Shown here: piece by piece, positions 3,163 to 63,914 of the stretch
Numbering within the stretch: position 1 is the stretch's first letter
Layout of the letters: the number at the start of each line of letters is the position of its first letter
Assembly: GCA_947165435.1 (NCBI GenBank)
Contig: CAMVAI010000003.1
Span: forward strand, 24,548 to 88,547
DNA: 64,000 nucleotides
Source: an uncultured Prevotella sp.
GTDB lineage: Bacteria > Bacteroidota > Bacteroidia > Bacteroidales > Bacteroidaceae
Direction: 5' to 3'
Position numbers and translations under genes: made by a program
The notes under the pieces: model-generated
Database searches by the model: none
What the model was told of the DNA's origin: nothing
The model's input: only the letters and a program-made list of their open reading frames with translations

Positions 3163-5436
3163 TTACCGCTTCAAGGGCAGCCAGAGCGACATGTCTTGAA
3201 TGCCCCGGTTGTCCCAGGCGTAGTAAGGGATGAGGCGGATGTGCGCCTTGCGGTTCGTGACGGGGCGCAGCTCGCGGTAGAGCTCGTCGCTGCGCCAGAA
3301 GTCCTCGTTGACAATGGGTACGTCGGCTTCGAGGGCTACCATCTCGTGGCCACAGATGGTGACCTTGGTCTCGGTGAAGCGCACGTCGGCGGGGATGGCG
3401 ATGTCGTTGATGCGGGGGGCGGGGGAGGCGGTGGCAGCGGCAGAACCGCTGCCCACAGTAGCGGCGGAAATATCCTGGCCCTCTAAGCAATAGACGATGG
3501 GGCCGCGCATGATGGCGATGTGGTTCTTGGCCTCCTCGACCAGCGGGTTGGCCTCGATGAGGCGCGGGCGCATGGGCAGGATAAGCTCTATACGGTCGCC
3601 CTTCTTCCATTTACGCGGCTCGCGCAGGGCCTCGGCGGCGATGGGCTTGCCGTTGAGGCGCAGCTCCATGCCGGTGCTCCATCCGGGGATGTGCATGCGG
3701 ATGCTGGCCAGGTGCTTGGCCTTCTTGATGGTCAGCGTGATGTGGCCGTCCCATGGGTAGTCGGTCTGCTGCTCCACCTCCAGGTCGTCGGTCTTCAGCG
3801 TGTTCTGTCCGTAGAGGTTCACCCACAGCGTATCGCCCTTGATGCTGTAGGCATACTCCTGCGCCTCCAGGAGCGTGCGCAGCGTGTTGGGCGGACAGCA
3901 GAAGCAGGTGATGTAGCGCTGGCGGTGCTTGGGCCATCGCAGCACGTAGGGGTACTCCTTGGTGCGGCGCAGGGCCTCGGTGTAGAAGTAGTCCTTGCCG
4001 TCGAGCGACACTCCGCTGAGGATGCCATTGTATAGCTCGTTCTCGATGTTGTCGATATACTTCGGGTGCATGTCGGTCTGGAACATACGCCACGAGTAGA
4101 GCAGCATGCCAATCTGGGCGCATATCTCGTTGTGGGCATACTCCTGCGGCAGCTGGAACTGGCGTCCGTAGGCCTGGTGTATCTGCTGGATGGAGGGCTG
4201 GTTGTAGGTGGTGCCGTCAGGCGACACACCGTCGTAGAGGGCTCCACAGCCACCCATGATGTATATCTTATGGTTTACGATGTCGTCCCAGATGGCCTCC
4301 AGGTTCTTCTTCAACTGTGCCTCGCCAGTCTCGGCATAGAGGTCGGCCACGCCGGCATAGAGGTAGTTGGCGCGCACGGCATGGCCCATGGCCTCATACT
4401 GCTGGCGGAAGGGGATGCGGTCCTGGTTGTGGTCCTCGCCGTTCTTCACCGAGTCGCGGATGCTGATGAGGCCCTCGGCCAGGGTGAGGTACTTCTTGTC
4501 GCCCGTCTCGCGGTACATCTCGGCAGCACCCATGTAGTGGCTGGGGCAGATGGCGTTGCGCGACAGTTCGGCAGCGTCGTTGGTCAGGAAGTTGTAGAGG
4601 AAGTCGGCCGCCTTGCGCCCGCAGTCGAAGAGCATCGTCTTGCCCGTAGCCCGCTTATGGATGATGCCCGCCGTCATGAGGTGGCCAAGGTTGTAGGTCT
4701 CGAAGTTCAGGCGCGAGGCAAAGGCATGCTTCTGGTCCTTGCCAATCTCGATGCCGGCGGCATTCTCCGAAGCTCCGGCCCTAGCCCCCGCCGAACCTCC
4801 AGCCCCCTCCAAACCTCCCCCTGTAGGGGAGGCTTTTTGACCAGCCGCCGAAGCTCCAGCCCCCTCCAAACCTCCCCCTGTAGGGGAGGCTTTTTGCGCG
4901 GTCGATTCTCCCCCTCTACAGGAGGGGGTCGGGGGGAGGCTGGTCGGGGGGAGGCTGTTCCGCTCTTCAATATTCACCGGCGTGTGGATGTAGCCGTCGG
5001 CACGCTGGGCGAGAGCCACTTGCTCGATGAATTGGTCCATCAACTGGTCGAGCTTCGGGTCTTTGGTCACGGCGTATGCGGCAGCGCAGGCCTCCAGCCA
5101 TTTGTACATGTCGCCATCGTGGAAGGGAGGACCGTGGTGCTTGCCCTTGACGGTGCCCGCCGCCACCTGGAAATTGGCAAAACCGTGCGAGCCGTGCAGG
5201 CCGAGGGCATCGATGGTCTCGTAGGGCGTATTCCATGTGTCCCACATCGACCAGATGCCGGTGGTGGAGAGTACGTTGAAACGGTCGCCCCAGAATCCGC
5301 CCGTCCAGTGGGTGGCACCGAGGGGCAGGTTGTGCATGACGGCCTCGCGGCTGTGGGTCATGTCGGTGAGACCTTGGGCCGGGGAGGCTGTGGCAAAACC
5401 ACAGCACACAGTGCAGGAAATGAGGAATCTTTTCAT
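3163..5436 (-). CDS. GH127-like (DUF1680) beta-L-arabinofuranosidase with in-frame repeat insertion
   Basis: GLHGSHGFANFQ, HNEICAQIGMLLYSWRMF, CFCCPPNTLRTLLE; signal peptide MKRFLISCTVCCGFATASPAQG. ORF track start is 5484, but the signal peptide suggests 5436. Confidence 0.88.
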   Translation of the reverse strand: MKRFLISCTVCCGFATASPAQGLTDMTHSREAVMHNLPLGATHWTGGFWGDRFNVLSTTGIWSMWDTWNTPYETIDALGLHGSHGFANFQVAAGTVKGKHHGPPFHDGDMYKWLEACAAAYAVTKDPKLDQLMDQFIEQVALAQRADGYIHTPVNIEERNSLPPTSLPPTPSCRGGESTAQKASPTGGGLEGAGASAAGQKASPTGGGLEGAGGSAGARAGASENAAGIEIGKDQKHAFASRLNFETYNLGHLMTAGIIHKRATGKTMLFDCGRKAADFLYNFLTNDAAELSRNAICPSHYMGAAEMYRETGDKKYLTLAEGLISIRDSVKNGEDHNQDRIPFRQQYEAMGHAVRANYLYAGVADLYAETGEAQLKKNLEAIWDDIVNHKIYIMGGCGALYDGVSPDGTTYNQPSIQQIHQAYGRQFQLPQEYAHNEICAQIGMLLYSWRMFQTDMHPKYIDNIENELYNGILSGVSLDGKDYFYTEALRRTKEYPYVLRWPKHRQRYITCFCCPPNTLRTLLEAQEYAYSIKGDTLWVNLYGQNTLKTDDLEVEQQTDYPWDGHITLTIKKAKHLASIRMHIPGWSTGMELRLNGKPIAAEALREPRKWKKGDRIELILPMRPRLIEANPLVEEAKNHIAIMRGPIVYCLEGQDISAATVGSGSAAATASPAPRINDIAIPADVRFTETKVTICGHEMVALEADVPIVNEDFWRSDELYRELRPVTNRKAHIRLIPYYAWDNRGIQDMSLWLPLKR
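4801..4834 (+). repeat. GC-rich palindromic element, R-arm half unit (34 bp) inside the GH127 gene
   Basis: agccccctccaaacctccccctgtaggggaggct; same sequence as 4858-4891 and 9614-9647. Confidence 0.95.
4858..4941 (+). repeat. 84-bp composite palindromic element (R arm + 16-bp core + L arm) inside the GH127 gene
   Basis: agccccctccaaacctccccctgtaggggaggct-tttttgcgcggtcgatt-ctccccctctacaggagggggtcggggggaggct; near-identical to 7364-7447 and 9344-9427. Confidence 0.95.
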
Positions 5437-5493
5437 ATTCATATATTTCAATATTAGTCTTTCATTACACATTATTTCTTTCATCCTTGTTTT

Positions 5494-7135: not shown

Positions 7136-10006
7136 CTATAGGCTCAGGCCATTGTAGTCTTTAGTGATTTCGATGGTGATTGCTTTGCTCATGTCCATGT
7201 CGTCGGTAGAATCCACCTCGTTGGGATAGAGCCTGATGAGGCTGCCCGGGCGCACGAATACCGGCATGTGGTCGAGCGGCACCTTCACATCATAGTACCA
7301 GCGTCCTCCCTCCAGTCGCTCGCCCGTGAAGAAGTTGACCCAATCAGCCCCCTCCAAAGCTCCAGCCCCCTCCAAACCTCCCCCTGTAGGGGAGGCTTTT
7401 TGCGCGGTCGATTCTCCCCCTCTACAGGAGGGGGTCGGGGGGAGGCTGGCCGGGGGCAGGTAGATGTCGCGCCGGTTGTTGCCATTCATCACGGGGCAGA
7501 CCAGGAACTCGGAGCCGAAGTAGTATTCGTCGTCGATGTGCCATACCTGTCGGTCATGGGGGTGCTGCATCAGCAGGGCGCGGAGCATGGGCCATCCCGA
7601 ATGGCACGAGCGTTCAGCTTGTTCTGTAATATAAGGCAAGAGCCGGTAGCGCAGCTGCCACCACCGCTTGACAATGGGGGCGATAGCGGGATAGTGCCAC
7701 GGTTCGCGCTTGCAAGTGCCGTGGTAGCGCATGTGGGAGGAGAACACGCCAAACTGCGTCCAGCGCACATAGACCTGCTCGTCTAAGGGCGAGTTCATGA
7801 AGTCGGGTGTGGAGTGGAAGCCCGGCACGTCGTGGCTCCAGAAGGCGAAGCCCGATAGTCCAAAGTGCAGTCCGCCCTTCAGGCTTCCCGCCATGCCCGC
7901 CCACGACGACTCGCTATCGCCGCCCCAGTGGAGGGGGTAGCGCTGGCAGCCTGCCCAGGCCGAACGTGCCCATACGATGCCGTCGCCAGTCACCTCCTTA
8001 GTTATCTCGTAGGCGGCCCGCTGGTAGAGCAGGGCGTAGATGTTGTTCAGCCGTTCTGGAGCCATGCCATGATATTGGTGGTCCATGTGGATGTTCTCGC
8101 CGAAGTCGGTCTTGATGCACTTGACACCCATGTCGAGCAGGGGGCGCAGCAGCCGGTTCTTATACCAGTCGGTGGCGGCAGGGTAGGTGAAGTCGATGGT
8201 GCCGGCGTAGTCGAGGGCCGAGAAGTTGGAGGAAGCCTCCCCCTGTCCCCCTCCTGTAGAGGGGGTAGAGAGAGCGGTGATGATACGAGCTTTTACGGAA
8301 TCCAAGTCTTGAAGTATTTCTTCGTTGGTGAATCTTAATACAGAAAAGCCGACGTATTCTAAATACTCAGTCCTTATCGCGTCTATTTCTTGTTGTTTGG
8401 CATCTTGGTGGTAACCGCCATCAACCTCTATGACCAATGAGCAAGAAGGACAAACAAAGTCAGCGATATAGTCGCCAATGATGTGCTGTCTTCTGAATTT
8501 TTGCCCCAGACCCTTTCCTCTCAGTACTTGCCATAGTATATTCTCTGCCTCCGTGGGCTCTTTCTTGTTATTCTTTGAGAACAATTTCAGAAGGTCATAT
8601 CTGTCAGGATAAGCCAATCGGTAATCATTATAGTTGCGTTTCTGTAAGCCTCCCCTACAGGGGGAGGTTTGGAGGGGGCTGGCTTGACTGATATACCTGT
8701 TAGCTTTGGCCTCTTCCAGCTGCTCGGCACCCTGTGCCACATAGGGAAGCTGCCACAGCGACACCTTGAAACCGTTGTTTTTGAGACGCTGGATGAAGGC
8801 CTTCGGGTCGGGGAACCGCTCGGGGTTGAAACGCCATTCGCACAGCCAGTCGGTGCGGAACCAGCCGGTGTCGAGATGGATGACATCGCAGGGGTAGTGT
8901 TCGTGGCGCAGACGGTCGCAGATGTCGTTGACTTCGTCGGCAGAGAAGTAGGTCATGCGACTCATCCAGATGCCGAACGACCAAAGTGGCGGCATCTGCG
9001 GGAAACCTGTTAGCATGCGGTAGCCACGGAGAATCTCTTCCGGTGTCTTGCCACCGATGAGGAACACGTCGATGGTGGCGTGGTCGTTGAGGAACTGTAC
9101 CGAGCGGGTGGAGTGGTCGGCCAGCGACAGCTTGCAGTAGTCGCTGGTATGGAAGAAGGCACCGTACATACGGCTCGACAGGTAGAACGGGATGTTCTTG
9201 TAACAGCGGCGGTTGTTGACACCTTGTCCGTCCTGGTTCTTCAGCTGGAAGGTCTGTCCGCTGAGGTCCATCTTGCGGAATCGCTCGCCAGTGCCTACGA
9301 AGCACTCGTCGGCCTCGCAGCGGAAGCTGATGGTGGCACGCTCAGCCCCCTCCAAACCTCCCCCTGTAGGGGAGGCTTTTTGCGCGGCCGATTCTCCCCC
9401 TCTACAGGAGGGGGTAAGGGGGAGACTCACGAAGCCCAGCGGCAGGGCGTCGTAGCGTGGCGGCGAGAAGTGGTCGTCGCTCAGCGCAATGCCCTTCGTC
9501 TCGTCGCCGTCGGGATAGAAGGTGATGAAGGGCGCAGGCTGCGGTGCAGGTAGCAGGTCGCTCCAGTGGTCCAGTACGGGGGAGCGCTGGTCGATAGTCC
9601 CCACCAAACCTCCAGCCCCCTCCAAACCTCCCCCTGTAGGGGAGGCTTTACTGATTACTACGATTCCGCCATTGTCCTTTATAGAAAGAGGAACGCGCTT
9701 TACCCCGGGGGCGAACTGCAGCATGTCGTCCTGCTCGGTCATCTCGTCACCGCTCATGGTGGTGAACAAACGGATGATGTTGGGCTCGTATGCTCGGACG
9801 ATGAGGTCGTAGCTCTGTTGGGCTGCTGTGGTGTCGGGCGCCATGTCCTCCTGGTGCAGTTGCTTTTGATAGGGGATGGTAATGATGATGTCGCCATCAC
9901 GCTCTTCTATTCTTGTCGGTGCGTATGCTTTCCAGAGGGCTTCGGCCTGCTGTAGGGCGGGGTCGAAGTCCATGAAGTCAAAGAGATGGTAGTTGGTTTG
10001 CTTCAT
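7136..10006 (-). CDS. GH31 alpha-xylosidase/alpha-glucosidase interrupted in frame by several repeat elements and a DUF559-like domain
   Basis: GH31 motifs GVKCIKTDFGENI, WARSAWAGCQRYPLHWGGDSESSW, HDVPGFHSTP; extra segments ASPTGGGLEGAG, PPTPSCRGGE and a 149-codon insert lie within the ORF. Confidence 0.93.
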   Translation of the reverse strand: MKQTNYHLFDFMDFDPALQQAEALWKAYAPTRIEERDGDIIITIPYQKQLHQEDMAPDTTAAQQSYDLIVRAYEPNIIRLFTTMSGDEMTEQDDMLQFAPGVKRVPLSIKDNGGIVVISKASPTGGGLEGAGGLVGTIDQRSPVLDHWSDLLPAPQPAPFITFYPDGDETKGIALSDDHFSPPRYDALPLGFVSLPLTPSCRGGESAAQKASPTGGGLEGAERATISFRCEADECFVGTGERFRKMDLSGQTFQLKNQDGQGVNNRRCYKNIPFYLSSRMYGAFFHTSDYCKLSLADHSTRSVQFLNDHATIDVFLIGGKTPEEILRGYRMLTGFPQMPPLWSFGIWMSRMTYFSADEVNDICDRLRHEHYPCDVIHLDTGWFRTDWLCEWRFNPERFPDPKAFIQRLKNNGFKVSLWQLPYVAQGAEQLEEAKANRYISQASPLQTSPCRGGLQKRNYNDYRLAYPDRYDLLKLFSKNNKKEPTEAENILWQVLRGKGLGQKFRRQHIIGDYIADFVCPSCSLVIEVDGGYHQDAKQQEIDAIRTEYLEYVGFSVLRFTNEEILQDLDSVKARIITALSTPSTGGGQGEASSNFSALDYAGTIDFTYPAATDWYKNRLLRPLLDMGVKCIKTDFGENIHMDHQYHGMAPERLNNIYALLYQRAAYEITKEVTGDGIVWARSAWAGCQRYPLHWGGDSESSWAGMAGSLKGGLHFGLSGFAFWSHDVPGFHSTPDFMNSPLDEQVYVRWTQFGVFSSHMRYHGTCKREPWHYPAIAPIVKRWWQLRYRLLPYITEQAERSCHSGWPMLRALLMQHPHDRQVWHIDDEYYFGSEFLVCPVMNGNNRRDIYLPPASLPPTPSCRGGESTAQKASPTGGGLEGAGALEGADWVNFFTGERLEGGRWYYDVKVPLDHMPVFVRPGSLIRLYPNEVDSTDDMDMSKAITIEITKDYNGLSL
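7364..7447 (+). repeat. 84-bp composite palindromic element inside GH31
   Basis: Matches 4858-4941; preceded by an 18-bp partial duplicate (7346-7363). Confidence 0.95.
8234..8680 (-). mobile_element. 447-bp element: L arm + DUF559-type endonuclease domain + R arm, embedded in frame in GH31
   Basis: Ends agcctccccctgtccccctcctgtagaggggg ... agcctcccctacagggggaggtttggagggggct match the two arms of the 84-bp units; interior encodes NKKEPTEAENILWQVLRGKGLGQKFRRQHIIGDYIADFVCPSCSLVIEVDGGYH...EYLEYVGFSVLRFTNEEIL. Length is 149 codons. Confidence 0.88.
9344..9427 (+). repeat. 84-bp composite palindromic element inside GH31
   Basis: agccccctccaaacctccccctgtaggggaggctttttgcgcggccgattctccccctctacaggagggggtaagggggagact. 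Confidence 0.95.
9614..9647 (+). repeat. R-arm half unit (34 bp) inside GH31
   Basis: agccccctccaaacctccccctgtaggggaggct. Confidence 0.95.
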
Positions 10007-12704: not shown

Positions 12705-13354
12705 CCAGGAAGACGCTGACATACGACGAACTGCGGATAACCCCTGCCGACGTTTACGAACAGATGGGCTATCGTGATGCTGTGCCCGACGACATGACAC
12801 AGCGCGAGACGCAGGCGGTCATCAACGAGGTGTACACATGGCTGCAGCCGCAGTTCTGCTATCTGGTGGAAGCAGTGCTGCCGCCGTTCGACTTGGGCGC
12901 CATCATCCGTCGGCAGCTGCGCGGCGCGGAGGCTTACGCCTTGTTTATATGCACCAGCGGTACGGCTTTTGATGCCTATCAACAACGGCTGAAGGACGAT
13001 GGTGACATGGTGCGCATGTTCATTGCCGACGCCCTTGGTTCTGTTATTGCAGAGAGGTGTGCCGACCGTATGGAGGAACATTTGCAGGAGAGCATTGACA
13101 AACTCGGATGGCATCACACCAACCGCTTCTCGCCGGGCTACTGCGGGTGGCATGTGTCGCAGCAACAGTTGCTTTTTCCTCTATTCAACGGTAATACATG
13201 CGGTGTACGCTTGACAGATTCTTCACTCATGGTACCCATCAAGAGTGTTAGCGGCATTATCGGTGTAGGCGAAAAAGTCCGCAGGCTCGACTATACCTGC
13301 GGACTCTGCGATTTTCAACAATGCTACAAGCGGAAGCTAAAGCCTGCCAAGTAG
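12701..13354 (+). CDS. Stand-alone methionine synthase reactivation (Met_synt_B12)-like domain protein
   Basis: RFSPGYCGWHVSQQQLLFPLF and CGVRLTDSSLMVPIKSVSGIIGVG resemble the MetH activation domain; overlaps the upstream stop by 4 nt. Confidence 0.75.
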   Translation: MTRKTLTYDELRITPADVYEQMGYRDAVPDDMTQRETQAVINEVYTWLQPQFCYLVEAVLPPFDLGAIIRRQLRGAEAYALFICTSGTAFDAYQQRLKDDGDMVRMFIADALGSVIAERCADRMEEHLQESIDKLGWHHTNRFSPGYCGWHVSQQQLLFPLFNGNTCGVRLTDSSLMVPIKSVSGIIGVGEKVRRLDYTCGLCDFQQCYKRKLKPAK

Positions 13355-16279
13355 TTGCTTGGCCACGGTGACAGCCGAGTTGGCATTGTCAGAGTAGCCG
13401 TCGGCACCTATCTCGTCGGCAAAACCCTGCGAGACGGGTGCGCCGCCCACCATCACCTTCACCTGATTGCGGATGCCGGCAGCCTGAAGGGCGTCTATCA
13501 CCTCCTTCATATACCCCATTGTGGTGGTAAGCAAGGCCGACATGGCCAGGATGTCGGGGCGGTTCTTCTTGATTTCCTCGACGAAGGTGTCGGCAGACAC
13601 ATCGATGCCGATGTTCACCACCTCGAAACCACAGCCTTCGAGCATCGAGGCCACCAGGTTCTTGCCGATGTCGTGTAGGTCACCCTTCACGGTACCTATA
13701 AGCACCTTGCCGATGGATGCCGACTGTTGTCCGCTCATCAGTGGCTTCAGTATCTCCAGACCGGCCTTCATGGCGCGACCGGCCATGAGCAGCTGGGGCA
13801 CGAAGGCCTTGCCGTCCTGGAAGCGCTGGCCTACCTCGCCCATGGCGCGTATCATGTCGTGGTTGATGATGTCCTGTGGCTGCCGACCGCTGTCGATGGC
13901 GGCACGGGTGGCCTGCACGGCGGCATCGCTCTTGCCGTTGAGAATGGCTTGGAAGAGCTGTTCCTCAGGGCTCATGCTAACAGATGGGTTGGAGGTGCTC
14001 GCTGAGATAGTAGGGATAGTTGGGATAGTTGAAATAGTTGGGATAGTTGGGATAGTTTTATTGGCAATACCAGGTGGGTTGGCCAGGTCGGAGAAGGCTG
14101 TATCCTTGTCCAGCGGCGACAGGCGCAGGCCGGGAACCGGTTCGATGGCCTTGGCTATGAGACTGATGTGCTTGTCGGTAGTGCCGCAGCATCCGCCGAC
14201 GATGCTCAGACGGTGCCCTTCTATCAGTGGCCACAGACTGGCCACCAGACTCTCGGGGGTGGTGGCATAGTGCCCCTGACTGTCAGGATGGCCTGCATTC
14301 GGGTAGAGGCTGACGCCCATGCCGAACTGTGCCAGACGGCAGACCAGCGGCGTCATGGCCTTGATGTCGGCGGTGCAGTTGATGCCGACGGAGAATAGCT
14401 GCTGCTTGTCTAATTGCTTGATGAACTCGATGATGTCCTGCCCCAGCATGTTGCGACCGTCCGCCGTGGAAATACTGAAGCTCAGCATGACGGGCAGTTC
14501 GGGGGCTATGGTCTTGGCGGCATCAAGGGCGATGCGGGCGTTTTCCACATCGAAGATGGTCTCTATGAGCAGGGTATCAACGCCCCCCTGCTTCAGTGCG
14601 CCAATCTGCTCTTCATAGGCCGTGCGTAGCAGCTCCTTGCTGAGCGGTTCGCCGCTGGTGGCCATCGAAGTGGTACGGCTGGTGGGACCTATGCTGCCGG
14701 CTACGAAGCGCGGACGGTCCGGCGTGCTGTATTCGTCGGCACACTGGCGTGCCAGTCGGGAGGCGGCGAGGTTGATGTCGCCGACGCAGGCTTGCAGACC
14801 GTAGTCTTGCAGCGAGATGCGCTGTGCGTTGAAGGTGTTCGTCTCGATGATGTCGGCACCGGCGGTCAGGTATTTACGGTGGATGTCGCGTATGACAAAC
14901 GGACACGTGAGCGACAGCACGTCGTTGCAGCCTTTCAGGTCGGTGGGGTGCTGGGCAAAGCGGGCACCTCGGAAGGCTTCCTCGTCCAACTGGTACTGCT
15001 GTATCATGGTACCCATCGCCCCGTCGAGAACCAGCAGACGGTCGGTGGGCAGCGGGGCGGGGTGTGTTGTCTTGCCAGTCATACTAGCCCTGCTATTCAT
15101 GCTAGTTTTACCAGCCTCTATCTTCTTGATAATCTCTGCCACCTCGCGGTCGGCATCGTCGAGCATGTCGGCAGGATGCACGTTGCGGCTGTGCTCAAAC
15201 TCCTGGACGATCTTCATCGCCTCTTCCACCTCACGCTCGTTGTGGAAGTCCATCTCCAGGTGGATGCCCTCGCCGCCGATGTGGTCCAGCAGCGGGCGCA
15301 GCTCGTCCAGCGTCACCCAGCAGGCCATGATGCTCTTGCCGCCGTCAAGTATCTTTCGGTACAGGTCGTACCATTTCGCGCTGCCGCCCTGTGGCTCGCC
15401 CACGCCGGGTGTCCACTGGATGGCGTTCAGCTCCTCGATTTCCAGCAGTGCATCCAGATGGTGCATGGCCCCCACGCCGTCCAGATGGTACAGCGTGTAG
15501 TCTATCTTCTGGCACTGTTCGCGGATGAAGGGCTGTACAAAGCGGCGGTAGTCGTCCTGGCTGATCATTGTCGATATGTCGCTCTGCAGCTTCGACATCT
15601 TGCCCGGTGCCCATGCCGAGAAGTAGCAGAAGGCCATCTCGTCGCCCTCGCGGATGATGTCGTACAGCTCGTCGAACACCTGGAAGTAGATGTCGTTGAT
15701 CTGCTGCATCTGGTGCTCTAAGCGCTCCGGGTGCATCACCGTGTCGAGCAGCACCTGGTCGGTGCCTTTCAGGGCCGCCAGCACGTCCATGCCCTCCATC
15801 AGGTCGGGCATGCCTACATAGTAGTGACCCTGTGCCTTCCGCTTGCAGGCCCGCAGCAAGTCTTTGTGCAACAGCCAGTTGGGGTGGTTGGGGTCGAAGC
15901 GGATGTCGTCGGTATCAACGGCAGAACCGTTGACCACCGTGGGGCGGGGGTGTATCCAGATGGTGTCGTCGCCACCCTCGAAGACACCGCCCAGGATGGC
16001 TGCCAGCGAGCCGGGACCCAGTTGTGTGTTGGCCACGGGCAGCATGTCGGCCATCAGACAGGAGTGGGCCACATACCAGTCCAGGTATTCGGCGCGCCAT
16101 TCGGGGTCGAACCACCGTTGGTTCAGGTCGCGGTAGGGCTTCGGCTCAGGCACGTCGGCATGGGGCTTCACGCCCTCTTGAAAGTGCTCCCACATGTTGA
16201 GCACAATGCCACGATGCTGCCACCAATCGATATAGTGCTGCTTGGTTTCGTCGAGGTTGGGTTTCCAAGTATTCATCAT
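13337..16279 (-). CDS. Three-domain fusion: UroD-like methyltransferase + homocysteine S-methyltransferase (MetH N-terminal) + corrinoid-binding domain
   Basis: N-term HLDGVGAMHHLDALLEIEELNAIQWTPGVGEP; middle LVLDGAMGTMIQQYQL, GSIGPT, VGGCCGTTDKHI; C-term GTVKGDLHDIGKNLVASMLEGCGFEVVNIG. Confidence 0.88.
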   Translation of the reverse strand: MMNTWKPNLDETKQHYIDWWQHRGIVLNMWEHFQEGVKPHADVPEPKPYRDLNQRWFDPEWRAEYLDWYVAHSCLMADMLPVANTQLGPGSLAAILGGVFEGGDDTIWIHPRPTVVNGSAVDTDDIRFDPNHPNWLLHKDLLRACKRKAQGHYYVGMPDLMEGMDVLAALKGTDQVLLDTVMHPERLEHQMQQINDIYFQVFDELYDIIREGDEMAFCYFSAWAPGKMSKLQSDISTMISQDDYRRFVQPFIREQCQKIDYTLYHLDGVGAMHHLDALLEIEELNAIQWTPGVGEPQGGSAKWYDLYRKILDGGKSIMACWVTLDELRPLLDHIGGEGIHLEMDFHNEREVEEAMKIVQEFEHSRNVHPADMLDDADREVAEIIKKIEAGKTSMNSRASMTGKTTHPAPLPTDRLLVLDGAMGTMIQQYQLDEEAFRGARFAQHPTDLKGCNDVLSLTCPFVIRDIHRKYLTAGADIIETNTFNAQRISLQDYGLQACVGDINLAASRLARQCADEYSTPDRPRFVAGSIGPTSRTTSMATSGEPLSKELLRTAYEEQIGALKQGGVDTLLIETIFDVENARIALDAAKTIAPELPVMLSFSISTADGRNMLGQDIIEFIKQLDKQQLFSVGINCTADIKAMTPLVCRLAQFGMGVSLYPNAGHPDSQGHYATTPESLVASLWPLIEGHRLSIVGGCCGTTDKHISLIAKAIEPVPGLRLSPLDKDTAFSDLANPPGIANKTIPTIPTISTIPTIPTISASTSNPSVSMSPEEQLFQAILNGKSDAAVQATRAAIDSGRQPQDIINHDMIRAMGEVGQRFQDGKAFVPQLLMAGRAMKAGLEILKPLMSGQQSASIGKVLIGTVKGDLHDIGKNLVASMLEGCGFEVVNIGIDVSADTFVEEIKKNRPDILAMSALLTTTMGYMKEVIDALQAAGIRNQVKVMVGGAPVSQGFADEIGADGYSDNANSAVTVAKQLLGRL
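14004..14057 (-). repeat. Six 9-bp tandem repeats (gggatagtt) coding an IPT-rich interdomain linker
   Basis: gagatagta gggatagtt gggatagtt gaaatagtt gggatagtt gggatagtt, translated TIPTIPTISTIPTIPTIS. Confidence 0.95.
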
Positions 16280-19898: not shown

Positions 19899-21656
19899 TC
19901 AGGTATAGGCCTGTTCATGCACCCCCTTGACAGCCCGTCCACTTGGGTCGTTAAGGTTTTGGAAGGCCGCATCCCATTCGAGGGCAATGGCTGTCGAGCA
20001 GGCTACGCTGGCCTCTGAGGGCACGCTGCGGGCAGCGGAGTCAGAAGGAAAATGCTCGGCAAAGATGCTGCGGTAGTAATACTCCTCCTTGTTCTTGGGA
20101 GGGTTGATGGGGAAGCGCTCTGCGGCGTGGGCCATCTGTTCGTCGGAGACCGCTGCCGCCGTTACGGCCTTTAGGGTATCAATCCATGAATAGCCCACGC
20201 CATCGCTAAACTGTTCCTTCTGCCGCCAGGCTATCTCGTCGGGTAGCATATCTGCAAAGGCTTTACGGACAATTTTTTTCTCGATGATAAAGTCGCTACT
20301 TGCCCCTCCCCTACAGGGGGAGGTTGGGAGGGGGCCGCACATCTTCGCCTCTGGATTGGTACGCATGGCCACGTCAAGAAACTCCTTGTCGAGGAATGGG
20401 ACACGCCCTTCTACGCCCCACGCTGACAGGCTCTTGTTGGCTCTCAGGCAGTCGTAGAGGTGGAGTTTTCCCAGTTTCCGTACGGTTTCTTCGTGAAAGT
20501 CGCGCGCAGAAGGTGCTTTGTGGAAATAGAGATAGCCACCGAATATCTCATCGGCTCCCTCACCCGAGAGCACCATCTTGATGCCCATAGACTTGATGAC
20601 CCGAGCCAGTAGATACATAGGGGTAGATGCCCTTACGGTGGTGACATCATAGGTCTCGATATAGTAGATGACATCACGGATGGCATCGAGGCCCTCCTGA
20701 ATGGTATAGTTGATTTCATGGTGAACGGTGCCGATATGGTCGGCTACGAGGCGGGCTTTGGCCAAGTCGGGAGCTCCCTTCAGTCCGACGGCGAAGGAGT
20801 GCAGGCGCGGCCAGTAGGCACGTGTCTCGCTGTTGTCCTCGATGCGGTGCTCGCTGAATTTCTCGGCAATGGCAGAGATGACAGAAGAATCGAGCCCTCC
20901 GCTTAAGAGTACGCCATAAGGCACGTCTGACATCAATTGCCGGCGGACGGCATCTTCCAGTGCATCGTGAATGTCTTTCACACTGGCAGGATTGTCTTTC
21001 ACTGCGTCATATTCCATCCAGTCGCGCCGATAGTATCTCTTCATGCCGGGTGCTGCGCTCCAGTAGTAATGGCCTGGCAGGAATGGTTCATATCGTTCGC
21101 ACTGCCCTTCGAGGGCTTTCAGTTCCGAAGCCGCATATACTGTTCCGTCACTGTTGTAGCCTATATACAACGGTATGACGCCAATAGGGTCGCGGGCTAT
21201 CAGAAACTCATCGTGCTCTTCGTCGTAGAGCACAAAGGCGAAAATACCGCTGAGACTTTCAAGCAGGGTGCTGAGTGCTGCTTGCTGTGTGTCGAGTGCG
21301 TCGTTCTGCGCCATGGTGCATTCTCTCATCTTTTTCCAAAGCGCCAAGATGACCTCACAGTCACTTCCGGTCTGAAAATCATACCGTCCGGCGTAGCGCC
21401 TGCGTATGTCCTGATGATTATAGATCTCACCATTGACGGCCAACACCTGTTTGCCGTCGGGCGAGTACAACGGTTGTCCGCCAGACTCCGGATCAACGAT
21501 GCTGAGTCGCTCGTGGGCCAGAATGGCATCCCCACCGACATAGATTCCACTCCAGTCAGGACCGCGATGTCGGATCTTCTGACTCATTCTCAATGCTTTC
21601 TGGCGCAGTTCGGCCGATTGATTCTTGACATTCAAGATGGCTACAATTCCACACAT
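19899..21656 (-). CDS. asnB: Asparagine synthase (glutamine-hydrolysing) with repeat insertion
   Basis: MCGIVAILNVKN (Cys2 nucleophile), LLSGGLDSSVI, VLSGEGADEIFGGY, WRQKEQFSDGVGYSWID; insert CGPLPTSPCRGGASS. Confidence 0.93.
   Translation of the reverse strand: MCGIVAILNVKNQSAELRQKALRMSQKIRHRGPDWSGIYVGGDAILAHERLSIVDPESGGQPLYSPDGKQVLAVNGEIYNHQDIRRRYAGRYDFQTGSDCEVILALWKKMRECTMAQNDALDTQQAALSTLLESLSGIFAFVLYDEEHDEFLIARDPIGVIPLYIGYNSDGTVYAASELKALEGQCERYEPFLPGHYYWSAAPGMKRYYRRDWMEYDAVKDNPASVKDIHDALEDAVRRQLMSDVPYGVLLSGGLDSSVISAIAEKFSEHRIEDNSETRAYWPRLHSFAVGLKGAPDLAKARLVADHIGTVHHEINYTIQEGLDAIRDVIYYIETYDVTTVRASTPMYLLARVIKSMGIKMVLSGEGADEIFGGYLYFHKAPSARDFHEETVRKLGKLHLYDCLRANKSLSAWGVEGRVPFLDKEFLDVAMRTNPEAKMCGPLPTSPCRGGASSDFIIEKKIVRKAFADMLPDEIAWRQKEQFSDGVGYSWIDTLKAVTAAAVSDEQMAHAAERFPINPPKNKEEYYYRSIFAEHFPSDSAARSVPSEASVACSTAIALEWDAAFQNLNDPSGRAVKGVHEQAYT
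20302..20335 (-). repeat. R-arm half unit inside asnB
   Basis: gcccctcccctacagggggaggttgggagggggc. Confidence 0.9.
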
Positions 21657-31778: not shown

Positions 31779-34700
31779 ATGACAAAAAGTAAATTAGACG
31801 GACTATATCAGCCGCAGTATGAGCACGATGCCTGCGGTGTGGGCATGGTGGTGAACATCCACGGCGGCAAGAGCCACGAACTGGTGGACCAGGCCTTGAA
31901 GGTGCTGGAGAACATGGAGCACCGCGGTGCCGAGACGCGCGACGGAACGGGCGACGGTGCGGGCATCATGCTGCAGATACCGCATGAGTTCATCCTGCTG
32001 CAGGGCATCCCCGTGCCCGAGAAGGGTAAGTACGGCACGGGCCTGGTCTTCCTGCCCAAGGACGAGACGGCGCAGCAGCAGATCCTCTCCGTCATGATAG
32101 AGGAGATAGAGCGCGAGGGCCTGCAGCTGATGCACCTGCGCACAGTGCCCACCTGCCCCGAGGTGCTGGGCGAGGCGGCACGGCGCGTGGAACCGGCCAT
32201 CAAGCAGGTGTTTGTGACGAGCAGCCTCACCCCCGACCCCTCTCCGAAGGGAGAGGGGAGTGATTACCTTCAGGGCAGTGTTTCTGAGCTTGACCGTAAG
32301 CTATATATAATAAGGAAAAGGATAGAGCGGAGACTTGCCGAGTTGGCAAAAGTATCTACTCCCCTCTCCAATCGGAGAGGGGTTGGGGGTGAGGCGTATA
32401 TTTGCTCATTATCAACCAAAAACATTATATATAAGGGAATGCTGGCCAGCGGACAGCTGCGTCGGTATTTCCCTGACCTGTCGAGTCCCTACCTGACAAG
32501 CGGACTGGCACTGGTACATTCACGATTCTCAACCAACACATTCCCCACATGGTCACTGGCCCAGCCCTTCCGCTTGCTGGCTCACAACGGCGAGATCAAC
32601 ACCATCCGTGGCAACCGGGGGTGGATGAAGGCCCGCGAGAGCGTGCTGTCGAGCGAGGCACTGGGCGACATCCGGGAGATTTCGCCCATCGTCGAGGAGG
32701 GCATGTCGGACTCGGCCTCGCTCGACAATGTGTTCGAGTTCCTTACCATGAGCGGCATGTCGCTGCCGCAGGCCATGGCGATACTTGTGCCGGAATCGTT
32801 CAACGACAAGAATCCCATCAGCGAGGACCTGAAGGCCTTCTACGAATACCACTCGATACTGATGGAGCCGTGGGACGGGCCCGCCGCCCTGCTCTTCAGC
32901 GACGGTCGCTATGCCGGCGGCATGCTGGATCGTAACGGTTTGCGCCCCAGTCGCTACACCATTACCCGGCAGGGCATGATGGTGGTGGCCAGCGAGGTGG
33001 GCGTAATGGATTTCGAGCCTGGCGATGTGGTATCGAAAGGACGGTTGCAGCCCGGCAAGATTCTGCTCATCGACACGCAGGAGGGCAGGATATATTATGA
33101 TGGCGAAATCAAAGAGCAGTTGGCCAAAGCCCATCCCTATCGTGAATGGCTCAGTGAGAACCGTGTGCAGTTGGAGAAATTGAAGAGTGGTCGCCACGTG
33201 GAGAACAGCGTGGACCATCTGCAGCAGCGGCTCATCCAGTTTGGCTACGGCCAGGAGGACATCGACCGCACCATCATTCCGATGGCTGCAGCCGGTCAGG
33301 AACCCGTGGCCGCGATGGGCAATGACACGCCACTGGCCGTCATCAGTGACCGTCCGCAGTTGCTTTTCAACTATTTCCGTCAGCAGTTTGCACAGGTGAC
33401 GAATCCTGCCATCGATCCTATTCGGGAAGAACTGGTGATGTCATTGACAGAGTATATCGGTGCTGTGGGAACTAATATCCTGACACCTGATGCCTCCAAC
33501 TGCAAAATGGTTCGCTTGCCGCAACCCGTGCTGACCAACACTCAGCTTGACATATTGTGTAATATCCGCTATAAAGGATTTAAAACGAAGAAACTATTCA
33601 TGTCGTTTGAAATCTCGAAAGGCGAGGAAGGGTTGCGCCAGTCACTCGACAATCTCTGCAAAGCAGCCGAGGCAAGTGTTGACGAGGGCGTAAACTACAT
33701 CATTCTCACTGACCGTAATCTTGATGATCAGCAGGCTGCAATCCCTTCGCTGCTGGCTGTGAGCGCTGTCCACCACTATCTTATCAGTGTTGGCAAGCGA
33801 GTTCAGACGGCTCTTATCGTGGAGAGTGGCGAAATTCGCGAGACGATGCATGCAGCATTATTGTTGGGCTATGGTGCAAGTGCGCTGTGTCCGTATATGG
33901 CCTTTGCTATCTTGGATGACCTGGTAAAGAGAGGGAAGATTCAGGAAGACTACGAGACAGCCGAGAACCATTATATCCATGCCGTTGATAAAGGACTGAA
34001 GAAGATCATGTCGAAGATGGGCATCTCTACTATCCGCAGTTATCGTGGTGCGAAGATCTTTGAGAGTATAGGGCTCGGCGAGCCTTTGTTGCGCAGGTAC
34101 TTTGGCACTGCGACAAGTACTGTCGGCGGCATCGGTCTAAAGGAAATAGCCCGAGATGCCATCCGTTTCAGTTCGCTTTCTGCACAAAACGCTCCACTAA
34201 AGAATCACGGACAGTTCTCTTGGCGTAAGGATGGTATCAAGCATGCCTGGACTCCTGAGACAATCTATCGCCTGCAGATTGCCACCCGTACGGGGGACTA
34301 CCAGAAGTTCAAGGAGTGGTCGGTCATGGCAGACGAGAAGGATAGCCCTATTTTCATCCGCGACTTCTTCGGCTGGAAGAAGGCAGACAGGCCGACTCCG
34401 ATTGACGAGATTGAACCCGTGGAATCAATCGTGAAGCATTTTGTGACGGGTGCCATGTCGTTTGGTGCATTGAGCATCGAAGCGCATGAAGCGTTAGCCT
34501 TGGCGATGAACAAGCTCGGCACTCGTTCAAATACAGGCGAGGGCGGAGAGGACAATGCCCGTTACCATACTGAGGTAGATGGCGTGAGCCTCAGCAGTAA
34601 GACCAAGCAGATAGCAAGCGGTCGTTTTGGAGTGACGGCTGAGTATCTTGTGAATGCCGAAGAGATACAGATAAAGGTGGCCCAGGGCGCCAAGCCTGGT

Positions 34701-63731: not shown

Positions 63732-63812
63732 AAAAGTTTCAACACAGCATAAAGCCATCCTATTGCTGCAACAGTCAGGTGCGGGATAGGTGTGGGGCGG
63801 CAGTTGCAAAGT

Positions 63813-63914
63813 GTCAGCTACGTGCGGGATAAAATGAGCAAATCGTCAGCTACGTGCGAGATAAATTGAGCAGACTGTCAGTTTACGTGCGGGATGTGCG
63901 GGATGTGCGGGATG
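63813..63914 (+). repeat. Three ~32-bp direct units ending in a GTGCGGGAT iterated tract
   Basis: gtcagctacgtgcgggataaaatgagcaaatc / gtcagctacgtgcgagataaattgagcagact / gtcagtttacgtgcgggatgtgcgggatgtgcgggatg. Confidence 0.9.

Follow-up and report, generated by a model that had tools for sequence, protein, structure and literature searches.

The segment at positions 8234 to 8680 of the window, i.e., the whole stretch of 64,000 nucleotides from an uncultured Prevotella sp. that was analysed, is probably a long copy, equipped with a gene, of a palindromic element that is widespread among bacteria; this judgement includes spread by means of its DUF559 nuclease. The element (AGCC...GGCT, minus strand) comprises 447 nt, exactly the 149 codons at 8234-8680 given in the original prediction, and lies in frame inside a GH31 glycosidase gene (7136..10006, minus strand, 956 aa). 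As had also been predicted, the host frame stays open throughout the insertion; the same ORF contains three further in-frame arm insertions and is open across all four. The sole gene of the element is the DUF559 (PF04480) nuclease domain at 8270..8587 on the minus strand, with a conserved core at 8294-8557. Pfam placed DUF559 at residues 474-579 of the 956-aa ORF with GH31 domains on both sides. The profile search confirmed the family that had been read from the translated insert (E 7e-32, 110.1 bits versus a cut-off of 20.6, profile positions 4-108 of 109). Each end of the element is an arm consisting of a tag and a hairpin. In coding sense, the 5' end is formed by arm A (8649..8680, minus strand) with the hairpin CCTCCCCCTGTAGGGGAGG at 8649-8667 and the tag AGCCCCCTCCAAA at 8668-8680 in minus-strand reading, the 3' end by arm A' (8234..8265, plus strand) with the tag AGCCTCCCCCTGT at 8234-8246 and the hairpin CCCCCTCCTGTAGAGGGGG at 8247-8265. 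The short repeats at 4804-4943, 7346-7453 and 9346-9430 indeed have the same A and A' arms.

The arrangement had been likened to an intein or homing endonuclease, with no sign of self-splicing. The absence of splicing signs stood, but the intein likeness was misleading: the in-frame position is one of several contexts of the element, and Pfam found in the 956-aa ORF only GH31 and PD-(D/E)XK nuclease families and no Hint/intein domain. A splicing element that releases a free nuclease and a free glycosidase is very improbable. The nuclease does lie in frame inside a larger predicted protein and the frame is open in three species, but the ends of the insert are translated DNA palindromes that are also present without a nuclease, and many DUF559 copies are intergenic.

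Orthologues of the GH31 gene were searched in 60 genomes of the genus. The empty site was found in 17 orthologues without DUF559 insertion, which had 65-84 % identity over the aligned host columns, and the other three arm insertions were missing in all ten orthologues aligned in detail. Two Prevotella-type contigs (L094 and L095) carried DUF559 at the same GH31 site, with inserts of 447 and 459 nt and open frames of 962 and 889 aa. These carriers dispelled the doubt, raised along with the original prediction, that the insertion is an assembly chimera. Although the source assembly has 150 contigs and is 86 % complete, a chimeric origin of the GH31-DUF559 fusion is practically negligible in view of the same insertion in two other assemblies. 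Records marked as complete and genomes of one or two contigs likewise contained arm-flanked DUF559 genes, and for the arm-DUF559 family the chimera reading is already refuted. Among the three carriers, four-fold sites of the host gene agreed in merely 35-52 %, and the synonymous sites of the inserts were saturated or nearly so at a dN of about 0.2. A 41-nt stretch that contains the left arm differed from that of the window by one base in L094 and by one base in L095. Hosts and inserts have thus diverged, yet open frames, the dN of the inserts and the near-identical arm indicate that reading frame, nuclease and arm have long been kept; the left arm is either constrained or homogenised with other copies. 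In the host tree, the carriers were scattered among empty relatives, with modest support. The inserts are as diverged as their hosts, therefore no recent transfer has taken place and recent homing into GH31 was rejected.

Residence in genes is not restricted to the glycosidase: 27 of 97 DUF559 copies of the family were in frame within larger ORFs. Besides GH31, the genes split internally include those for SpoIID-domain proteins (L014, L049, L080), a MiaB-type radical-SAM protein (L035), a RecD-like helicase (L087) and nucleotide-sugar or polysaccharide functions (L009, L044). In other cases the DUF559 frame was continuous with the start or the end of a gene, among them those for aconitase, isocitrate dehydrogenase, GcpE, guanylate kinase, IspF, a FabG-like protein and phosphoglycerate mutase. 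The phylum-wide set contained DUF559 in frame within DNA-methylase-type, restriction-enzyme-like proteins of several genera (L224, L225, L227; frames of about 1100-1270 aa).

The source genome has four DUF559 genes, one of them decayed, each with inverted tag-hairpin arms of differing sequence types. PF04480 was present in 70 of 201 genomes of the same family. An inverted-repeat alignment of the two 300-nt flanks yielded a median score of 49 for 91 distinct DUF559 copies, compared to 18 for offset windows and 20 for flanks taken from different elements, which shows a specific match between the two arms of an element. Seventy-six of the 91 copies exceeded the 99th percentile of the offset windows. 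A score above 27 was obtained for 62 of 79 copies in a second set and for 20 of 29 in the phylum-wide set. The RAYT genes of the same genomes served as positive control and revealed, by the same flank method, different arms of their own. A strict arm detector, which demands a perfect stem and a C-rich tag and undercounts (the inverted-repeat test gives fairer figures), found both arms at 67 and at least one arm at 140 of 200 DUF559 genes. The corresponding values were 1 and 24 for 311 offset windows and 0 and 1 for 26 RAYT genes; none of 30 GIY-YIG genes had arms, a weak control of mostly about 600-aa proteins, probably UvrC. DUF559 genes elsewhere are hence bounded by such arms, the point on which the original prediction had been staked. 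Its restriction to Bacteroidales was too narrow: matched two-sided arms were also detected at DUF559 in records of Cyanobacteria, Deinococcota and Alphaproteobacteria (Pseudomonadota). Tags pointed outward in 254 of 269 arm-bearing DUF559 flanks, and the tag-to-tag length of the elements was mostly 440-676 nt with a median of 499. Direct repeats of 2-9 nt were not enriched at the tips of 115 elements, whose positions are known to within a few bases; with target-site duplications missing in these elements, DDE-type transposition and a MITE nature were rejected. In Legionella pneumophila, three segments with a transposase and a DUF559 nuclease have been described as mutational and recombination hotspots (PMC12308824). 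Some proteins contain DUF559 without arms, e.g., L043 and L081, which represent an armless subfamily (TPAEATLWLQLKAKRL..SWRRQ) that is perhaps resident rather than mobile.

The arms had been described as palindromes, but they are not plain ones. In 169 distinct arms, the tag mirrored the 5' strand of the stem with a mean identity of 0.953, tag A being counted as T. Mirror identity with the tags of other elements was 0.820 (P 2e-27) and a direct, unmirrored comparison gave 0.816 (P 1e-20). Tag plus mirror-symmetric stem is the known BoxC/PIT/TM triplex motif. Judged from its sequence, the arm is of BoxC/PIT type, with all three blocks present: a pyrimidine tag and a GC-rich hairpin whose 5' strand mirrors the tag. 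Folding into an intrastrand triplex would be possible with such a design, and triplex formation in solution has been shown for the E. coli motif (PMC4666352). Further likenesses to BoxC/PIT/TM are the C-rich composition, the pairing of two inverted motif types and the occurrence in many phyla; according to Holder et al. 2015, two neighbouring motifs in inverted orientation are always one of each of two types (PMC4666352). The motifs described there are gene-less, always intergenic in E. coli and have no mobility function nearby; neither transposase nor integrase remnants were found near the motif, and DUF559 is not mentioned (PMC4666352). The present unit, in contrast, has a DUF559 gene between two arms and is often located inside genes. 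E. coli BoxC units do adjoin a DUF559 gene, ycjD, whose neighbours are sapF and fabI; the BoxC-type units lie directly downstream of ycjD, on one side only. A 44-nt unit from this downstream region was found at 18 sites in the median genome. Upstream of ycjD is a different, A+T-rich hairpin, so that ycjD does not form a clean unit with two arms.

Arms also occur in shorter, gene-less arrangements. Fifteen arms were listed in the real window and 0-2 in shuffled windows, and the tags of complete pairs within the window point outward. In the GH31 gene, the in-frame insertions other than the long element are an A and A' pair with a partial extra tag (7346..7453), a pair of A with an imperfect A' (9346..9430), both listed without strand, and a single A arm on the plus strand (9616..9651). 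Two A arms and one A' arm (4804..4943, no strand assigned) are in frame in a neighbouring glycosidase-like ORF of 773 aa (3163-5484, minus strand), and a single A-type arm (20305..20338, minus strand) is in frame in an asparagine-synthetase-like ORF (19899-21656, minus strand). A short arm pair of another type, with AGCCTCACCCCCGA and a CCCCTCTCC stem, was located at 32223..32396, again without strand, and resembles the arms of the DUF559 copy L001 of the same genome. The short pairs of about 85-180 bp in window and genome are most likely gene-less derivatives of the long element, by analogy with the relation of REPINs to RAYTs. Translated arms explain a recurrent nuisance of annotation, peptides like SPLQTSPCRGG, PSPLPLGEDLGEG and LTLTLSPRERE within predicted proteins. 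The source genome also contains at least nine non-coding composite repeats of about 450 bp (L204-L210, L221 and L222 on contigs C11, C13, C17, C21, C38, C40, C57, C7 and C30), gene-less, with GCTGCCACTCTGCCACC in the outer inverted parts and inner arms of the CCCCACCCCCAACCCCTCCC type. Elsewhere in the window, an ORF of 980 aa at 13337-16279 (minus strand) appeared by eye to be a fusion of uroporphyrinogen-decarboxylase-like, homocysteine-methyltransferase-like and cobalamin-binding parts with a TIPTIPTIS linker, and a 32-bp unit was present twice in tandem at 63806-63869, the two being 88 % alike.

By sequence and predicted fold, DUF559 is a Vsr-like nuclease of the PD-(D/E)XK superfamily. 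It is under purifying selection, with a median dN/dS of 0.095 for 41 pairs. T27, E30, D58, E69, D71 and H75 were invariant in 69 sequences (numbering of the 122-residue domain), and D58, E69, D71 and H75 are, with the predicted structure as a guide, the putative catalytic residues. AlphaFold2 modelled the domain from the 69 sequences with a pLDDT of 89.6. The best PDB fold was 3hrl (NGO0050, a DUF559-like endonuclease), followed by 3r3p, the homing endonuclease I-Bth0305I (Foldseek E 8e-5, TM 0.77 on target; sequence match E 4e-8); E. coli Vsr ranked further down. I-Bth0305I is listed as a mobile-intron protein, whereas the DUF559 element has palindromic arms and no intron or intein.

Arms and nuclease varied together among genomes and among elements. 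DUF559 was detected in 38 of 48 genomes with at least five arm motifs, but in 23 of the 153 genomes below that number (nominal P 4e-16, the relatedness of genomes being ignored), and RAYT presence had no association with arm number in the same genomes (P 0.31). These counts, as well as the analysis of G056 below, used the CCCCTCC-stem pattern only and miss other arm types. The ten arm-rich genomes without detected DUF559 were mostly incomplete assemblies. One of them, the same-family genome G017, is 90 % complete and has 147 arm motifs; arms may therefore persist or move without a resident DUF559 copy. For 155 elements, with locus-sharing pairs removed, arm similarity rose from 0.20 to 0.58 with increasing DUF559 similarity, a correlation reached in none of 300 permutations. 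G056, a nearly finished genome, has gene-less elements with two arm types, and the same two types occur on two of its DUF559 copies; in the corresponding ranking, somewhat favoured by the CCCCTCC-limited pattern, 28 of 32 own arms were in the top 5 %. Matching arms in non-homologous surroundings were observed for the pairs L061/L073 (88 %, on one contig about 2.5 kb apart), L132/L143 (81 %) and L129/L168 (80 %).

We infer that DUF559 cuts at the arms and drives the mobility of the element. The nuclease would recognise the folded arms and nick or cut at them or at the target; repair of the break would copy the element into the new site in a homing-like manner without target duplication, and some copies would survive in frame inside genes, as in GH31. 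Such a break-repair route is consistent with the missing target duplications and with the nuclease fold. The wider proposition, which we hold with no more confidence than doubt, is that DUF559 proteins are the mobility enzymes of a pan-bacterial class of elements with intrastrand-triplex ends, whose gene-less copies are BoxC/PIT and which would persist also as in-frame protein insertions, all without a transposase, recombinase or integrase of known type. Two facts weigh most heavily against the nuclease-driven mechanism: DUF559 was not detected in ten arm-rich genomes, and many copies have resided at orthologous places for a long time.

The first of these facts would fit a DUF559 that is cargo, a hitch-hiker captured between two arms that are moved by RAYT or another enzyme. 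Arms greatly outnumber DUF559 genes, and longer composite repeats without a gene also bear arms. Yet RAYT as the mover was rejected: the RAYT genes have other arms and their presence is unrelated to arm number. The gene between the arms is DUF559 and not a cognate HUH (Y1) transposase. In the stretches read of the source genome and of G056 no other arm-bracketed gene was seen, and a passenger does not readily agree with the co-variation of arm and nuclease. We regard the cargo reading as unlikely.

Many DUF559 copies have long resided at orthologous places, which would suit a resident gene better than an active mobile element, and they are kept there under purifying selection. DUF559 could accordingly be a nuclease of repair or control that resides in the genome and processes triplexes and hairpins, with the adjoining arms as sites of binding or self-regulation and the repeats spread by replication errors. 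The Vsr-like fold points in this direction, as does the DUF559 protein VsrA of Caulobacter, to which SOS response and DNA damage in a methylase mutant are due and a mismatch-repair-like role has been assigned (PMC12907096). Triplex motifs have also been tied to local instability in E. coli (PMC4666352). Two matched flanking arms with outward tags argue for a mobile unit rather than an operator, however, and so do the repeated insertions within unrelated genes and the same unit at unrelated loci; we consider a purely resident nuclease quite unlikely.

The unit resembles REPIN/RAYT systems in several respects: short palindromes are paired in inverted orientation with their tags outward, gene-less copies accompany a few that have one small enzyme gene, and a genome has several families of arms, each with an enzyme copy of its own nearby (PMC3116915, PMC3733652). 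It differs in its enzyme, a PD-(D/E)XK-type nuclease instead of an HUH tyrosine transposase, and in its tags, which begin with AGCC or GACC and continue C-rich, the GTAG/CGTC of REPIN/RAYT not being found. The palindromic elements of Rickettsia and Wolbachia (RPE, WPE) are, as cited in PMC3733652, likewise short palindromes in frame in many genes. In the present case a 149-codon, enzyme-bearing unit is in frame, and no sequence relation was seen. RPEs are not known to carry a gene.

BoxC, PIT and triplex repeats have been known since the 1990s from hundreds of genomes, without an enzyme or a route of spread. DUF559 is a common family of orphan nucleases, including E. coli ycjD, with almost no literature; its name appears in 14 of the 5.39 million papers searched. 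A literature search, outside of which most subscription journals lay, yielded no paper that ties DUF559 to BoxC/PIT or REP-like repeats. The orphan repeats of the BoxC class may herewith be given their missing enzyme, and with the link between DUF559 and BoxC, E. coli K-12 becomes a direct testing ground for both.
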